The notes beneath the pieces are model-generated. The model saw nothing but the letters and a program-made list of their open reading frames with translations, did no database searches and was not told where the DNA came from. A stretch of DNA of 64,000 nt, from contig NZ_JARUKV010000007.1 in assembly GCF_029688865.1 (NCBI RefSeq), positions 62,001 through 126,000 of the forward strand, read 5' to 3'. The position numbers and the translations under genes are program-made. Origin of the DNA: Natronococcus sp. A-GB7. Its GTDB lineage: Archaea; Halobacteriota; Halobacteria; Halobacteriales; Natrialbaceae. Position 1 is the stretch's first letter. The number at the start of each line of letters is the position of its first letter. Below are positions 44,562 to 53,099 of the stretch, in pieces.

Positions 44562-45758
44562 ATGGCACGCGTATCACTCAGCAACGTCACGAAGCGCTAC
44601 GATGACGTCGTCGCGGTCGACGACATGAATCTCGAGATCGAGGACGGAGAGTTCGTCTGTTTCGTCGGCCCCTCGGGTTGTGGGAAGTCGACGACGATGG
44701 AGACGATCGCCGGGCTCACGAAGCCGACCGATGGAACGATCCGGATCGGCGACGCCGACGTCACCAACCTGCCGCCAAAGGATCGGGGTGTGTCGATGGT
44801 CTTCCAGAACATCGCGCTGTTCCCCCACATGGACGTCTACGAGAACATCTCGTTCGGGCTTCGGCTGCGGAAGTACGACCAGGACGAGATCGACCGTCGG
44901 GTCGACAACGCCTCGGAGATCGTCCAGCTCGAGGGGATGCTCGATCGCGAGCCCAACGAACTCTCGGGCGGCCAGCAACAGCGGGTCGCGATCGCACGGG
45001 CGATCGTTCGCAACCCGGACGTCTTCCTGATGGACGAGCCGCTGGCGAACCTGGACGCGAAGCTCCGGGTCCACATGCGAACCGAGCTCCAGCGCCTGCA
45101 CAAGCAACTGGACACGACGATCATCTACGTCACCCACGACCAGGCCGAGGCGATGACGATGTCCGATCGGATCGCCGTCCTCAACGCGGGACAGCTCCAG
45201 CAGATCGATCCGCCGCTGGTCTGTTACAACGAGCCCGCGAACCTGTTCGTCGCCGGCTTCATCGGCTCGCCGTCGATGAACTTCACCGACGGCGAACTCG
45301 TCGACGGCGGCATCACGACCGAACACTTCGATATCGAGTTCGACACGACCGAACTCGGCGTCGGGCCGGGCGACGAGATCACGGCCGGGGTCCGCCCGGA
45401 GGACATCTACCTCACCAGAAACGAGGACGAGGTCGACTACCCCTCCGAAGTGATCGAGGCGACGACCGACGTGCTCGAGCCGATGGGCGACGAGATCTTC
45501 GTCTACCTCTCGCTGGACGGCACCAGCGGCTCCTCGATGACCAGCGACGAGGCCGCCGGCGCCGCCAACCAGCTGTTGATGAGCGTCGACCCCGACACGG
45601 AGATCGAGGAGGACGAGTCGGTCTCGATCGTGCTCGATCGTTCGAAGGTCCACCTGTTCGACACCGCGTCGGGCGACGCGCTCGCACACGGCATCATCGA
45701 CCTCTCGGAGGCCGAACGAACGAGAGCGGCGGCCGAATCCGGTGGTCAGCATGAGTAG
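44562..45758 (+). CDS. Sugar ABC transporter ATP-binding protein (UgpC/MsmK type)
   Basis: A 398-residue ATPase. Walker A GPSGCGKST is at 36-44, the signature LSGGQQQR at 134-141, Walker B VFLMDEP at 154-160, and the H-loop His at 192. A C-terminal OB/TOBE-like regulatory domain of about 160 residues resembles the UgpC/MalK subfamily. It is the last large gene of the transport operon, and its 3' end overlaps the next small gene by eight bases. Confidence 0.93.
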   Translation: MARVSLSNVTKRYDDVVAVDDMNLEIEDGEFVCFVGPSGCGKSTTMETIAGLTKPTDGTIRIGDADVTNLPPKDRGVSMVFQNIALFPHMDVYENISFGLRLRKYDQDEIDRRVDNASEIVQLEGMLDREPNELSGGQQQRVAIARAIVRNPDVFLMDEPLANLDAKLRVHMRTELQRLHKQLDTTIIYVTHDQAEAMTMSDRIAVLNAGQLQQIDPPLVCYNEPANLFVAGFIGSPSMNFTDGELVDGGITTEHFDIEFDTTELGVGPGDEITAGVRPEDIYLTRNEDEVDYPSEVIEATTDVLEPMGDEIFVYLSLDGTSGSSMTSDEAAGAANQLLMSVDPDTEIEEDESVSIVLDRSKVHLFDTASGDALAHGIIDLSEAERTRAAAESGGQHE

Positions 45759-47921: not shown

Positions 47922-48196
47922 AGATGGGGCGTGTGGGCTCGGTGCGGTGGCCGTCGTTTCGGCGGTCGAACGGGGTCGCCGTCCGCCGGATCGAGCGCGC
48001 TCGTGGTAGTTCGAAGGTCGTTTCGACTAATGAAGGTTGTTCAACGAGACGACAAACTTCCTTGCAACTCTCTCTAGAGTTCACGCCGAACATCGCGTCC
48101 CCATCGCTACCCAGCGACCGTCGTGATCCGGGCGGTCGCCGGTCGAGTCCCGACCCCGCCGATTCGGATCCCCTCGCAGGAAGCGCCCTCCGTTCG
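47922..48196. other. Intergenic stretch without a supported gene
   Basis: About 275 bases between the DUF8001-like gene and the IS scar. The first bases should hold the promoter of the minus-strand gene. The plus strand has a 115-codon open frame, but its composition is low-complexity and unlike neighbouring genes. Its last part runs into the IS right end (IEEKAHDFSRG), so I read it as remnant DNA. Confidence 0.5.
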
Positions 48197-48256
48197 ACGA
48201 GGGCGTTACACGAAATCGAGGAGAAAGCCCACGACTTCAGTCGTGGGAGAAGTCAC
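48197..48256 (+). mobile_element. Orphan IS200/IS605-type right end with terminal hairpin
   Basis: CCCACGACTTCAGTCGTGGG (48228-48247) is a perfect 9-bp stem with a two-base loop. The flanking GGGCGTTACACG and GAGAAAG before it, and GAGAAGTCAC after it, are as in the right ends of haloarchaeal IS605/IS1341 elements. A plus-strand peptide ending IEEKAHDFSRG is typical of the overlapped tnpB 3' end. No tnpB or tnpA is present, so only the end remains. The hairpin lies directly after the stop of the minus-strand membrane gene at 48253. Confidence 0.8.
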
Positions 48257-48558
48257 TTGAGGGTGACGTAGACGAGCGAGACCAGTGCCAGGAACTGCAG
48301 TCCGCGCAGAACCAGCATCACGCGGTGGACGAGCGGTTCGTATCCGTACAGCATCGCCTCCGCGAAAAAGAAGTAGACGGCGACGAGGTTCTCGAGCATT
48401 AGAACGAGGCTAAACAGTAGCAAACCGAGAACGAGCGGCGTGCGGAACCGGCGGTAGTTCTGGGCCCACACGTACGTCAACACGCCGAGTAGGACGAGGT
48501 TCCCTCCCGAGAGCGCGGTCGCGACCGTAACTTCCGTCGTAATTGCCATGTCACTCAC
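48253..48558 (-). CDS. Haloarchaeal three-helix membrane protein
   Basis: A 101-residue protein with three hydrophobic helices (about 15-35, 40-62, 78-99) and the loop WAQNYRRFRTPLVLG. It occurs next to a small wHTH gene with a four-base overlap, as in a haloarchaeal regulator/membrane-protein pair. Its stop codon TGA falls within the conserved right-end sequence of the adjacent IS remnant. Function unknown. Confidence 0.75.
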   Translation of the reverse strand: MSDMAITTEVTVATALSGGNLVLLGVLTYVWAQNYRRFRTPLVLGLLLFSLVLMLENLVAVYFFFAEAMLYGYEPLVHRVMLVLRGLQFLALVSLVYVTLK

Positions 48559-48830
48559 TCAAGTTTGTCCGTGATCGACTCGAACGCGGCCCTGTGGCCC
48601 TCGAACTGCTCGGTCAGGAAGTAGAGCTTGCCGTACTCCTGGCTGCCCTCTTCGACGACGTCGTGTTCCTCGAGCAGGTCGAGGTGGTACCGTACCGTGT
48701 TGTACTCGACGTCGAGTTCGTCGGCTAACTGGTTCGCGTTTCGCGGCCGATCGTCGAGCTCCCGAATAATTCGTGCTCGATTTTCGCCCCCGCGCGTACC
48801 GGCGATGAGGTACCACAGCGCCTTTTCCAT
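48555..48830 (-). CDS. ArsR-like winged-helix regulator
   Basis: A 91-residue DNA-binding protein: ENRARIIRELDDRPRNANQLADELDVEYNTVRYHLDLLEEHDVVEE is a complete winged helix. It is short and has no cysteine metal site, so it may be constitutive or respond to its partner. It is the first gene of a pair with the membrane protein at 48253, overlapping by four bases. A TAAATAG element lies 31-37 bases upstream. Confidence 0.82.
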   Translation of the reverse strand: MEKALWYLIAGTRGGENRARIIRELDDRPRNANQLADELDVEYNTVRYHLDLLEEHDVVEEGSQEYGKLYFLTEQFEGHRAAFESITDKLE

Positions 48831-49267
48831 CCGAACGGTCTGGCGTTAGTGTGACTGTGCTAAATAGTTCACCCACTCCCACCCGAGGATTCGGCAGCAC
48901 CGACCGGGATCGGGGTGGGCTTACTTTAGAGGGGGCTGCCGGGGCTATCTGCGGGGAAGGAACACCGTCGACGGAACCGGGGGAACCGGTAACCATAGCG
49001 CCTCGGCCGATGTAGGATACCCCAAGGTGAACGTGTCGCTCCGGCGTGCATGCGGATGCACGACCGCCGAACGATTTTACCGGTCCTCGAGTGAGCCGTC
49101 TTTCGAGCAGCCCGCCGAAGCGTACTGGGACAGTAACCGCTCCACCGTTCGATCGGCCGCTCGGTAATCGGAGACGCCCCGTTCGATGTCGACACGGTCT
49201 CCGACGGACGGTCGAGCCTTCTCGCTCGCGCACAGGGCTTATCTGGCGCGCAGGGTTTGAGTACCAT
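48831..49267. other. Intergenic region, no supported gene
   Basis: A 437-base gap between divergent genes. It holds the regulator's TATA-like TAAATAG (48861-48867) and the leader of the kinase. Long frames on either strand have irregular composition, and no small gene stands out. Confidence 0.5.
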
Positions 49268-51589
49268 ATGAGTGAGCGGAGCGGATCCAGAATGGCGTTC
49301 TGGGACGATGCGGCCGAAGACGATGCCCATCAGCGGTACCAGACGCTTCTTCACACGATCGGCGACGGGATCTTTCAGCTCGACGCCGAGGGCCGCTTCG
49401 TCGCAGTGAACGATGTTCTCCGCGAATTAACGGGGTACGCGTACGACGACCTTCTGGGGGAGCAGATCGCCGAGATCCTCGACACCGACGGGTTGGGGAT
49501 CGAGCGCGAAATCGAGCGACTCCGGACGAACCCCGCCGAACAGAGCGCACTCCTCGAGGTTCCCGTCCGGACCGCCGGCGAGAACGCGGTGCTCTGTGAC
49601 GTTCGAGTAAATCCGTTCGACGAGGACGAGTCCCTGCGGGGTGCCGTCGGGACCGTCCGCGAGATCGCCGGCCGAAACCGAACGGAGTTCGACTGGGACC
49701 AACAGCACCGCGAGTTCGAGTACGAGGGAGAGAGCTACGAGATAACGCGGGACCTCCAGGAGAGCGAAGAGCGACTGCGGCTCGCGCTCCAGGCCGGCGA
49801 GCTGGGCATGTGGGAGCTCGATCTCCGGACCCGGAAGTCGCCCGTCCGGTCGCCCCAGCACGATCGGATCTTCGGCTACGAGGAGCTCCGAGAGGACTGG
49901 AGCTTCGAAACGTTTCTCGAGCACGTCCACCCGGAGGATCGCGAGTTCGTCGAGCGCAGTTTCGAGGAGGCCTTCGAGACGGGAACGTGGGAGTTCGACT
50001 GTCGGATCGTCCGAACCGACGGCGAACAGCGGTGGATCGCGGCCCAGGGCGAGTTCTACTACGATACCGACGGGGAGGCGGTTCGTGCGATCGGAGTCGT
50101 TCAGGACGTCACCGAACAAAAGGCGAACGCGAAGTCGCGGCTCGAGGCCGCGACCGACGCCGGCGCCGTCGGGACCTGGGAGTGGCACGTTCCCGACGAT
50201 CGTATGGTCGTCGGCACGTCGTTCGCCGATCAGTTCGGAGTCGATCCCGACGCCGCCCGCGAGGGCGTCTCGCTCGAGCAGTTCGTCTCGTCGATTCACG
50301 AGGCCGACCGCGAGCGTGTCAGAGAAAAAATCGAGACCGCGGTCGAGACCTGTGGGAAGTACGAGGCGGAGTACCGCGTCTGGAACGCCGACGACGAACT
50401 CCGGTGGGTGTTCGCCCGCGGCCACGTCGAGTGTGACGAGGACGGGAACGCGCTGACGTTCCCGGGAACGCTCACCGATATCACCGACCGAAAGCGAGCC
50501 GAGATCGAGGCCGAAAACCAGTCGCGGCAGCTCGAGACGCTGTTTCAGGTCCTGCCCGTCGGCGCCGTCGTCGCCGACGGGAACGGCTCGTTGCTCAGGG
50601 CCAACGACGTTGCCAGGGACATCTGGGGCGGCGACGTGTTCGATGCGCAGTCCGTCGACGAGTACGACAAGTACTCGGCGGTGTGGGCCAACACGGGCGA
50701 GTCCGTCGAGCCCGAGGAGTGGACGATGGCCCAGGTGCTTCGCGGCGAGACCGTCACGGAGCCGAACGTGTACGAGATCCGTACGTTCGACGGCGAGCGT
50801 CGAATCATTATGGAGCACGGCAAACCGGTAAAAGACGCCAACGGCGACGTGATTCGAGCGATCGTGACGCTCACCGACATCACCGAGCGGAAGACGTACG
50901 AGCAGAAACTCGAGGAGTCGAACGAACGGCTCGAACAGTTCGCCTACGCGGCCTCTCACGACCTCCAGGAACCCCTGCGGATGATCACGAGCTACCTCGA
51001 GTTGCTCGAGGGTCGGTACGGCGACGAACTCGACGACGACGCCGAGGAGTTCCTCGAGTTCGCCGTCGACGGCGCCGATCGGATGCGAGAGATGGTCGAC
51101 GGGCTGCTCGACTTCGCGCGCGTCGATACGAAAGACGAGCCGTTCGAGCCCGTCGCGCTCGACGACGTACTCGAGGAGACGCTCGATACCCTCCGGATAA
51201 AAGTAGACGAGAGCGAAGCCGAAATCGAGGCGGAGTCGCTTCCCCGCGTGCGAGGCGACGAATCCCAGCTTCGACAGCTCTTCCAGAACCTCCTGAGCAA
51301 CGCGATCGAGTACTCCGGCGACGGGCCGCCGCGAGTCCGCATCGAGGCCGAACGCGCCGGCGACACCTGGACGATAGTGGTCCGCGACGAGGGGATCGGA
51401 ATCGATCCCGACGAGCAGGACCGCGTCTTCGGCGTGTTCGAACGGCTCCACGGTCAGGAGGAACACTCCGGAACCGGGATCGGGCTCGCGCTCTGTGAGC
51501 GGATCGTCGAACGCCACGGCGGCGAGATCTGGGTCGATTCGGAACCCGATGAGGGAACGGCGTTCTCGTTCACGCTCCCCGCGGCGTAA
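49268..51589 (+). CDS. Multi-PAS sensor histidine kinase
   Basis: A 773-residue cytoplasmic kinase without predicted membrane helices. It has four PAS-type domains: about 24-135, 165-280, 290-410 and 420-530. The repeated RTDGEQRWIAAQGEF/VVQDVTEQK and FARGHVECDEDGNALTF/TDITDRK blocks are PAC motifs. HisKA (SHDLQEPLRMITSYLELLEG, His564) is followed by HATPase_c with NLLSNAIEYS (N box), RDEGIGIDPDE (G1) and GTGIGLALC (G2). It autophosphorylates and passes the phosphate to a response regulator, none of which is adjacent. Start ATG at 49268; the next in-frame ATG is 24 bases on. Confidence 0.9.
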   Translation: MSERSGSRMAFWDDAAEDDAHQRYQTLLHTIGDGIFQLDAEGRFVAVNDVLRELTGYAYDDLLGEQIAEILDTDGLGIEREIERLRTNPAEQSALLEVPVRTAGENAVLCDVRVNPFDEDESLRGAVGTVREIAGRNRTEFDWDQQHREFEYEGESYEITRDLQESEERLRLALQAGELGMWELDLRTRKSPVRSPQHDRIFGYEELREDWSFETFLEHVHPEDREFVERSFEEAFETGTWEFDCRIVRTDGEQRWIAAQGEFYYDTDGEAVRAIGVVQDVTEQKANAKSRLEAATDAGAVGTWEWHVPDDRMVVGTSFADQFGVDPDAAREGVSLEQFVSSIHEADRERVREKIETAVETCGKYEAEYRVWNADDELRWVFARGHVECDEDGNALTFPGTLTDITDRKRAEIEAENQSRQLETLFQVLPVGAVVADGNGSLLRANDVARDIWGGDVFDAQSVDEYDKYSAVWANTGESVEPEEWTMAQVLRGETVTEPNVYEIRTFDGERRIIMEHGKPVKDANGDVIRAIVTLTDITERKTYEQKLEESNERLEQFAYAASHDLQEPLRMITSYLELLEGRYGDELDDDAEEFLEFAVDGADRMREMVDGLLDFARVDTKDEPFEPVALDDVLEETLDTLRIKVDESEAEIEAESLPRVRGDESQLRQLFQNLLSNAIEYSGDGPPRVRIEAERAGDTWTIVVRDEGIGIDPDEQDRVFGVFERLHGQEEHSGTGIGLALCERIVERHGGEIWVDSEPDEGTAFSFTLPAA

Positions 51590-51711
51590 AACATCGTCTC
51601 GGTCCGCCGTACTGTGGTTCGCGGAGCCCGCGAGTGAAACGGCAGGAACCGGACTGGCACCCGAAACGTCGAACTGTCCGGACGACCCCGTTACAGAGAA
51701 ACAGCGCGAAA

Positions 51712-51732
51712 TCCCACGCTTCAGTCGTGGGA
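51712..51732 (+). mobile_element. Second orphan IS605-type hairpin (short, imperfect)
   Basis: TCCCACG (51712-51718) and CGTGGGA (51726-51732) with loop CTTCAGT: the same right-end hairpin as at 48228 with one A lost from the left arm. It is in the same orientation as the first copy. It sits six bases outside the stop codon of the aminotransferase at 51738, again at the 3' end of a minus-strand gene. No transposase gene is present. Confidence 0.72.
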
Positions 51733-51737
51733 GACGG

Positions 51738-53099
51738 TCAGGCTACCGTCGCGCTCCGTCCCGCGGCCTCGATCGCCTCGAGGAAGATGCCGATCCCGAG
51801 ATCGATCTCGCGCTCGCTGGAGTCGAGCGGCGGGAGCAGTCTGATCGTCTTCTTTCCGCAGCCGAGCGTCAACAGCCCGCGGCGCAGCGACTCCTCGACG
51901 ACGGCGCTGCGGCGCTCGGGGGTGTCGAACTCGACGGCGAGCATCAGTCCCTTCCCTCGGACGTCGACGACGTGGTCGGGCGAATCGTCCCGAAGCAGCT
52001 CCTTCGCCTGCTCGCCCCGTTCGGTGGCGTTGTCGAGCAGATCGTACTCGTCGATCGCCTCGAGAGTGAACGCGCCCATCATCGAACCCAGTAAATCGCC
52101 GCCGCCGAACGTCGAGCCAAGTCGGTTCTTCTCGCTGGGGAAGATCTCGGATCGGGAGATCGTCGCGCCGACGCGCAGTGCCTTCGCGGCGGAGATGACG
52201 TCGGGTTCGATCGGATAGTGATCGGCGGCCCAGAGCTCTCCGGTGCGGCCGACGCCGGACTGGATCTCGTCGACGATCAGCGGAATGTCGTACTCGTCGG
52301 TGACGTCTGCTACCTCCTGCATGAACGCCTCGCTGGGGAAGCGGTAGCCGCCGACGCCCTGGATCGGCTCGAGGGTCAGGAAGGCGATCTCGTCGGGGTT
52401 GATGTGGCCACCCTCCGGAGACAGCGAGTTCCGAAGCTGCGAGCCCTCGTTCGCGAAGAAGCCACAGTCACAGCTGGCGGCGTCACAGCCCCGATCGGCA
52501 CAGAACGGGACCGTCTCGATCCCGCTTATTTCGGGGTAGTGACGGGTGTAGACCTCCTTGGATTTGGTGATCGAGAGGGTCCCGAAGGTGCGCCCGTGGA
52601 AACTGCCGGCGAAGGCGACGCCGTACTTCGCGGGCGCCCGATGGTCGTGGGCGATCTTCATCGCGTTCTCCATCGACTCCGCGCCGGAGTTCGAGAGAAA
52701 GACGGTGTCCATCCCGTACTGGCTCGAGACGTCGACCAGTTTCTCCATCAGGTGGCTCGAGCCCGGCACCTCCGAGTCCTCGGGGGTGGGACCCGCACCG
52801 AAGTACATGTCCTGGCCGGCGATCTTCATCGGTTCGACGAGGTCGAACTCCCGCAGTTTGCCGGTGAGCTTCTCGTTGTTGTACCCGAGTGGCGCGGCAC
52901 CGATGTGACACGTGAAATCGAGCAAGACGTTGCCGTCGACGTCGGTGACGAACGGGCCGTCGGCCTCGCGGGTCACGTCCCACACGAACTCGTGAGAGTA
53001 CTCGCTGGGTGCCGCGTTCTCCCCGTGGAACTCGACCCACTCCTGGGCGTTAGGGCCGGGGAACGCGTCCACGTTCGGTTCGGCAGTGTCCCTGTCCAT
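51738..53099 (-). CDS. Class-III aminotransferase (lysine 6-aminotransferase-like)
   Basis: A 453-residue PLP enzyme of aminotransferase class III. It has NSGAESMENAMKIA (137-150), Asp278 in LIVDEIQSGVGRTG and the Schiff-base lysine 306 in AAKALRVGA. A short cysteine insert, CADRGCDAASCDC (200-212), and the N-terminal leader distinguish it from GABA aminotransferases. It probably transfers the terminal amino group of lysine, ornithine or a related omega-amino acid to 2-oxoglutarate. Start ATG at 53099; a palindromic operator lies just upstream. Confidence 0.87.
   Translation of the reverse strand: MDRDTAEPNVDAFPGPNAQEWVEFHGENAAPSEYSHEFVWDVTREADGPFVTDVDGNVLLDFTCHIGAAPLGYNNEKLTGKLREFDLVEPMKIAGQDMYFGAGPTPEDSEVPGSSHLMEKLVDVSSQYGMDTVFLSNSGAESMENAMKIAHDHRAPAKYGVAFAGSFHGRTFGTLSITKSKEVYTRHYPEISGIETVPFCADRGCDAASCDCGFFANEGSQLRNSLSPEGGHINPDEIAFLTLEPIQGVGGYRFPSEAFMQEVADVTDEYDIPLIVDEIQSGVGRTGELWAADHYPIEPDVISAAKALRVGATISRSEIFPSEKNRLGSTFGGGDLLGSMMGAFTLEAIDEYDLLDNATERGEQAKELLRDDSPDHVVDVRGKGLMLAVEFDTPERRSAVVEESLRRGLLTLGCGKKTIRLLPPLDSSEREIDLGIGIFLEAIEAAGRSATVA

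Follow-up and report, generated by a model that had tools for sequence, protein, structure and literature searches.

The window analyzed here, a stretch of 64,000 nucleotides from Natronococcus sp. A-GB7, contains two similar hairpins, each beside the stop codon of a minus-strand gene, which raises the question of how they arrived there and whether they serve these genes. The original prediction regarded them as orphan right ends of IS605-type elements that might have become 3'-UTR hairpins or terminators, or else might be relic guide RNAs of TnpB. The features at the two sites are as follows.

48206–48209, plus strand: TTAC word to the left of unit A, reading GTAA on the gene strand, the putative former stop context of gene A (sequence and comparison with the related genome G004).
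48210–48256, plus strand: unit A, a 47-nt, one-hairpin IS605-type unit with a left-end-like flank, the hairpin, and the right tip GTCAC; borders uncertain by several bases.
48228–48247, plus strand: hairpin A, CCCACGACTTCAGTCGTGGG, with an 8-bp stem and a 4-nt loop (sequence and folding).
48253–48558, minus strand: gene A, encoding a small protein of 101 amino acids; the right tip of unit A contains its TGA stop (48253–48255).
51691–51694, plus strand: TTAC word to the left of unit B, reading GTAA on the gene strand, the earlier stop of gene B, now displaced.
51695–51741, plus strand: unit B, a 47-nt, one-hairpin unit ending in GGTCAG; an exact insertion, as the empty site in G004 demonstrates.
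51713–51731, plus strand: hairpin B, CCCACGCTTCAGTCGTGGG, one base shorter than hairpin A (sequence and folding).
51738–53099, minus strand: gene B, encoding, judged from its sequence, a putative class-III aminotransferase-like protein; its TGA stop (51738–51740) is supplied by unit B.

The hairpin coordinates originally proposed hold, with that of hairpin B (51712–51732) correct to one base, and the two copies do share the same strand polarity. The neighboring minus-strand stop codons, also pointed out at that time, start at 48253 and 51738, i.e., 6–7 nt to the right of hairpins A and B, and the likeness between the two copies reaches approximately 20 nt leftward and 9 nt rightward of each hairpin. 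They are indeed orphans, because none of the 25 TnpB matches (24 above the curated cut-off) and two TnpA (Y1 transposase) matches in the genome lies on their contig (C67). A window scan with the 20-mer pattern (≤3 mismatches) was weak on its own, because it detected hairpin A alone (on both strands), missing B, and because each shuffled sequence gave 0.28 matches on average, and three of the 100 shuffles contained two or more. Stronger support comes from the genome-wide search for further copies that had been suggested, in which the pattern matched 29 times on the forward and 30 times on the reverse strand of the 4.88-Mb genome, against 8 and 11 times in the reversed control, and from a covariance model that recovered unit B at E = 6e-15 and unit A at E = 8e-15, both being among its ten training sequences. 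Hairpins A and B are thus real and of the IS200/IS605 type.

In terms of structure, each unit is approximately 47 nt long, immediately follows a TTAC word, and consists of a left-end-like flank, the hairpin, and a GTCA right tip. We compared the flanks with the ends of tnpB elements by ungapped identity. The 20-nt left flank of unit A had a mean identity of 0.69 to 18 left ends versus 0.43 to 13 right ends, and that of unit B had 0.55 versus 0.39. In the right-flank comparison, whose figures include one mis-picked right-end row (L236, excluded from the left-flank comparison), unit B resembled right ends (best 0.78, versus 0.44 to left ends), unit A leaned slightly toward left ends (0.44 to right versus 0.56 to left, ungapped), probably because its GTCA falls one base earlier, and all nine other units of the same genome that were compared were nearer right ends. 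L209 and L213 are two-ended elements, with one hairpin on the left and another on the right that precedes TAACTTAC, and the same right tip is fused to a similar left flank in the single units L205, L217, and L219; in L235 and L236, which contain tnpB similarity, the right tips are AGGAGGTCA. For the unit family, a left-end/right-end composite is thus shown, and for units A and B it is shown in part. The IS605-type assignment stands, but the reading of both as right ends alone was abandoned because of their left-end-like flanks.

Comparison with relatives supplied empty sites, as had been suggested, and both units are absent there. Gene B of G004 ends in GTAGCG-TAA-CGGGG, and the window has identical flanks with 47 nt inserted (GCG-TAA in G004 versus GC[C-TGA...]G-TAA in the window), giving an exact empty site. 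The flank join for unit B scored highest at the exact breakpoint (54.0); none of the 24 alternative breakpoints, shifted by up to 12 nt, exceeded 52, and the score was 34.5 when the unit was kept. The DHH-family gene of G004 showed a like pattern against G005 and G000, with a near-exact empty site whose join was best at shifts of 0 to +2 (G005 only); insertion at a short word, with no duplication of the target, is thus exact for unit B and within 2 nt for the DHH copy. At unit A, G004 differs from the window by short indels, and moving the join by −3 to −8 gave scores of 62–64 versus 62; its borders are not sharp, and the sequences are consistent with insertion without duplication at the target word. 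Gene A already has a TGA stop in G004, so a former TAA at this gene is inferred. No hairpin was found within 130 nt of the stop in any of 80 homologous gene B loci from the named genomes, a sample in which some genomes contribute more than one locus and distant homologs (down to 61% identity) are included. Likewise, none was seen by eye in the seven usable orthologs of gene A (an eighth, L082, was unusable). An older copy at purL appears, by eye, to have decayed in two of three species.

These findings bear on both functions originally proposed. In a complete element, the omega-RNA scaffold occupies the 3' end of tnpB, ahead of the right-end hairpin. If the hairpins were the right-end part of an omega-RNA (reRNA), relic or working, with the adjacent gene as guide, a TnpB encoded elsewhere would have to serve them; the genome does contain the TnpB matches mentioned above, and one TnpB element (L005) carries, at the 3' end, the identical hairpin of 20 nt. 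However, the sequence ahead of hairpins A and B is left-end-like and not a tnpB 3' end, so the scaffold is absent and a relic guide RNA is unlikely. In addition, unit B in its entirety is a 47-nt insertion, and an Rfam search of the window returned no family at the gathering score. The guide-RNA reading was dropped on the missing scaffold and the lack of an Rfam match, and we consider it extremely improbable. Retention of the units to end or protect the transcripts of both genes would fit their position directly after the stop, the stability of unit A (folding energy of −8.8 kcal/mol for DNA, z −2.95), and the location of most other single units at 3' ends as well. On the other hand, 16 of 200 shuffles fold as well as or better than unit B, whose hairpin is one base short, and both the 80 hairpin-free gene B loci and the apparently decayed purL copy speak against conservation. 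An intrinsic terminator would have a U-run after its hairpin; by eye, runs of T beyond either hairpin on the gene strand do not exceed three. The terminator role was rejected on the absent U-run and the lack of conservation, and such domestication seems very unlikely, although somewhat less so than a guide RNA.

The hairpins are instead very probably terminal-only palindrome-associated transposable elements (PATEs), derived from reduced IS200/IS605-type elements and located at antisense stop words. Copies elsewhere, on which the original prediction depended, do occur at gene ends in this and related genomes: unit-type matches were present in all nine genomes of the genus (E ≤ 0.5) and in 30 of 99 genomes of the order, our own included (E ≤ 1e-9). 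An intact-looking TnpA of 135 amino acids, carrying an HVH motif, is encoded elsewhere in the genome, and it adjoins a tnpB whose right-end hairpin differs (L023). The genome yielded no complete parent element with exactly these ends. Within the genus, two-ended elements of the IS605 type (L002, L005, L235, and L236) share the hairpin type and have a similar left flank and right tips, but differ from units A and B in having tnpB similarity and two separate hairpins.

Terminal-only PATEs have been described in Haloquadratum walsbyi, including the core-deleted HqIRS46 and a 52-bp PATE derived from ISHwa23 (PMC3119063). Like units A and B, these haloarchaeal elements are approximately 50 bp long, contain one palindrome and fused IS605-type terminal sequences, have a targeting word at one end, cause no target duplication, and are strain-specific; they belong to another genus and other sequence types, and the accessible part of that report does not mention insertion at stop codons (PMC3119063). 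Units A and B have a near-terminal palindrome and no terminal inverted repeats, are too short for a transposase, have fused ends (with the exception of the right flank of unit A in the ungapped comparison), and are strain- or species-specific (0 of 80 loci for unit B and 0 of 7 for unit A). REP elements are also single-hairpin sequences tied to IS200/IS605-type transposases, but they are 20–40 bp long, usually exceed 100 copies per genome, and have a GTAG foot and a RAYT gene (PMC3733652, PMC2817692), whereas the units here have the words TTAC and GTCA, fewer copies, and no identified RAYT. This is therefore a known kind of mini-element, of which units A and B are most likely further terminal-only PATE-type copies.

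We propose that a deletion between the left-end and right-end palindromes generated a one-hairpin element, which may have been inserted, or have collapsed after insertion, at a TTAC-like target, the antisense of a G-TAA or G-TGA stop. On the gene strand, the right tip, GTCAG or GTCAC, reads CTGA or GTGA, which provides a new in-frame TGA, with the last codon before it unchanged or synonymous and the old stop left approximately 47 nt downstream; the insertion would thus be nearly silent for the protein. Mobilization may have been by a TnpA acting in trans. Most likely, each unit swapped its gene's stop for its own without harm to the gene; apart from this neat fit of unit to stop codon, the site is largely ordinary.

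Whether the stops are themselves sought out was assessed in two sets. Among the matches listed, 122 were full-length, of which 11 tnpB-linked ones were set aside; 47 of the remaining 111 were dropped for lacking a GTCA right tip or having a left-end-type right side, leaving 64 units, and exact-stop units numbered 23 of 111 before this filter, which removed L176, and 22 of 64 after it. At least eight listed full-length matches, several near contig ends, were unused (G002:C11:1017, G002:C2:39, G006:C164:310, G005:C202:13299, G005:C221:1210, G004:C1:205120, G007:C1:483033, and G007:C1:278626). The second set covered 60 of the 91 order-level matches outside our own genome, of which the 24 of GTCA type were counted. 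The assignment of left words was loose, in that whichever suitable word came first within a few bases was taken. For the backgrounds, and around most units, genes were called by a codon-usage gene finder that probably put at least one gene (44574–45752) on the wrong strand; the calls for unit B, the DHH gene, and purL were also backed by orthologs.

An exact antisense stop codon was found at 13 of 32 TTAC units, compared with 22/319, 34/412, and 6/40 non-coding TTAC sites in three backgrounds. Units often fall there because TTAC, TCAC, and CTAC reversed are G-TAA, G-TGA, and G-TAG, and GTCA reads TGA. GTCA-tipped units lay at stops in 6/6 cases for CTAC, 2/2 for GTAC, and 2/2 for TCAC (both sets summed). 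Such counts could mean that the transposition machinery favors translation-stop or transcript-end regions beyond the TTAC word. However, TTAC units are 3'-biased in general, with 23 of 32 located either at an exact stop or no more than 100 nt beyond the 3' end of a gene (two of the 32 were inside genes) versus 117 of 452 non-coding background sites, which weakens any strong claim of this kind; within these 3' sites, the exact stop was still favored (13/23 versus 40/117), but only marginally (p = 0.04). In the second set alone, 4/15 TTAC units were at stops, versus 13/147 background sites (p = 0.055). The stop enrichment thus follows mostly from the general 3'-end bias, with a modest stop-specific part. 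The TGAC-word group had 0/17 at stops in the two sets, its frame test giving three stops inside the unit, three read-throughs, and none at the tip, and the count excludes units whose right tip differs, of which many have TCAC. The frame test otherwise gave 16/16, a count that takes in antisense ORFs, some of them possibly mere shadows of genes on the sense strand (for example L138, L139, L215, and L226). Most of this pattern would also be expected if selection acted against units at other positions; active targeting seems improbable to us, and the placement of these PATE-type units at stops may stem mainly from the target word and from selection against harmful insertions. In the literature searched, as far as its accessible parts extend, insertions of this kind at stop codons were not recognized in any report, apart from one sentence on REPs (PMC3733652).

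What looked like a guide-RNA relic is thus recast as an insertion whose empty site is known. It also shows a simple route by which a mini-element can persist at the ends of genes: on the opposite strand, both its target word and its tip are stop codons. More tentatively, and although this seems rather unlikely, haloarchaeal one-hairpin IS605 derivatives might use stop codons as landing sites, their words fitting the genetic code, their insertion being silent, and their 3'-end preference possibly being active. If this preference proves active, it would constitute a natural safe-harbor rule for archaeal IS605-type transposition.

The two hairpins predicted at the ends of two minus-strand genes were confirmed, each lying 6–7 nt from the stop codon of its gene within a 47-nt unit (unit A or B). 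The features discussed here are as follows.

48228–48247, hairpin A, at the stop of minus-strand gene A (a 101-amino-acid protein)
51713–51731, hairpin B, at the stop of minus-strand gene B (class-III aminotransferase-like)
48184–48205, separate inverted repeat (CGCCCTC/GAGGGCG) directly left of unit A

Among named genomes, gene B was matched best by Natronococcus amylolyticus, Natronococcus sp. A-GB1, a Natrialbaceae MAG, and Natronococcus jeotgali, which suggests that the source genome belongs with Natronococcus. As predicted, the hairpins also occur elsewhere in this and related genomes. A 20-mer pattern (≤3 mismatches) matched the genome 29 times forward and 30 times in reverse, compared with 8 and 11 times for the reversed control, and the better matches aligned in a common layout of a TTAC or TCAC word, approximately 20 nt of ACAGAGAANCAAGGAGAAAG-type sequence, the hairpin, and AGGANGTCA. 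A covariance model built from ten of these units found 13 matches in the same genome at E below 1e-9, including the ten training sequences, and matched 9 of 9 genomes within the genus (E <= 0.5) and, order-wide, 30 of 99 (E <= 1e-9), this genome included.

The original prediction held for the IS605 origin, orphan state, and position of the hairpins, but not for the proposal that they are right ends alone, because the 20 nt at the left of each unit were nearer to the left ends of tnpB elements than to right ends. The right flanks of unit B and nine other units in the genome were nearer to right ends; the right flank of unit A, in which GTCA lies one base earlier, slightly favored left ends in an ungapped comparison (0.56 vs 0.44). 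Two-ended elements occur in the genus (L187, L202, L209, L213, L216, L235, L236, and L240, the last three with left-end matches), and the single units L205, L217, and L219 fuse an L209/L213-like left flank to the L209/L213 right tip, TAACTTAC. L209 (G002:C36, about 79200–79660) and L213 (G006:C32, about 51780–52220), from two same-genus genomes, are approximately 400 bp long with a hairpin at each end; they showed no tnpB match in the 500 nt following the left end and, judging from sequence, are probably two-ended palindrome-associated transposable elements (PATEs). In Haloquadratum, PMC3119063 describes 52-bp terminal-only PATEs, left by repeat-mediated deletion between near-terminal palindromes, and we assign the window units to this one-hairpin form. 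Away from these units, the genome carries one apparently intact TnpA, adjoining a tnpB.

Comparison with relatives in the genus revealed empty sites. The gene B end in G004 reads GTAGCG-TAA-CGGGG, the window has identical flanks with 47 nt between them, and the joined flanks scored highest at exactly this breakpoint. Unit A is also absent from G004, but nearby differences blur its border by several bases. At about the place of the inverted repeat at 48184–48205, G004 has an inverted repeat of different sequence, so gene A may natively end in this feature. The same insertion pattern was seen in a G004 gene that we take to encode a DHH phosphoesterase, compared with G005 and the present genome, with the border placed within 2 nt against G005. 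No target duplication was seen at the inserts compared with relatives.

Read on the other strand, the target words carry stop codons (TTAC, G-TAA; TCAC, G-TGA; CTAC, G-TAG), as does the right tip (GTCAG, CTGA; GTCAC, GTGA). Among the matches listed for the genus, 22 of the 64 GTCA-type units supplied, with their own TGA, the stop of a predicted antisense gene; a further set, drawn from other genera, had 11 of 24 at stops.

GTCA-type units at stops, by left word (genus, antisense stops among matches listed; then other genera)
TTAC: 13/32; 4/15 (p 0.055)
CTAC: 2/2; 4/4
GTAC: 2/2
TCAC: other genera, 2/2
TTGC: 1/2; 1/1
TTAT: 0/2
TGAC: 0/16; 0/1
Other words: 4/8; 0/1

Non-coding TTAC words coincided with antisense stops in 22 of 319 cases in unit flanks, 34 of 412 across 400 kb from G007, and, in the window, 6 of 40. 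The 13/32 among matches listed exceeded this background when pooled (62/771; Fisher p = 1e-6), in G007 alone (3e-6), and in the window alone (0.014). All 16 TTAC units reached by a well-scored antisense frame, some of which may be shadows of sense genes, stopped it at their TGA, none in or past the hairpin; the remaining 16 had no such frame.

The genus also contains a second one-hairpin subfamily, TGAC followed by ACAAATATAGCGGAAG-hairpin-GGACGTCAC (L158, L161, L162, L165, L167, and L177 in G007, several near-identical; L188 and L192 in G004; L115 in the present genome, G000). At L115, L158, L162, and L188, the TGA of the target resembles a sense-gene stop. Elsewhere, L106 and L108 (G000:C14:50194-51010) are an inverted pair approximately 710 nt apart, with one 313-amino-acid open reading frame across both, and may belong to a single composite element.

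Nothing in the sequences pointed to a function for the host. The units contain no guide-RNA scaffold of the kind proposed, and an Rfam scan of the window returned no family above its gathering score. Domestication as a 3'-UTR hairpin or terminator likewise found no evidence: the fold is clear for unit A (z -2.95) but weak for unit B (z -1.68), and in none of 80 loci homologous to gene B in named genomes did a similar hairpin occur in the 130 nt around the stop. In G007, such a hairpin (L051) follows the stop of the orthologue by 87 nt, in opposite polarity, and was probably inserted independently. A further unit (L122/L245, G000:C76:13730-13781; model E 3e-6) lies at the stop codon of what is presumably purL; because it is degraded here, a stretch of like length in G002 and G004 has a hairpin unrecognizable by eye (a possible remnant), and the site in G005 is short and apparently empty, we read it as a single old insertion in decay.

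Among the matches listed, 23 of 32 TTAC units lay at a gene end or within 100 nt 3' of one, versus 117 of 452 non-coding background sites, and within those 3' sites the exact stop was occupied by 13 of 23 units versus 40 of 117 background sites (p = 0.04). Because TTAC units are thus generally 3'-biased and the exact-stop excess is only of this size, the target word together with selection against harmful insertions is the simplest account of the stop-codon placement, and any extra preference for the exact stop is modest at most. The units are an addition to a known kind, the terminal-only PATEs, with a neat and testable fit to stop codons.
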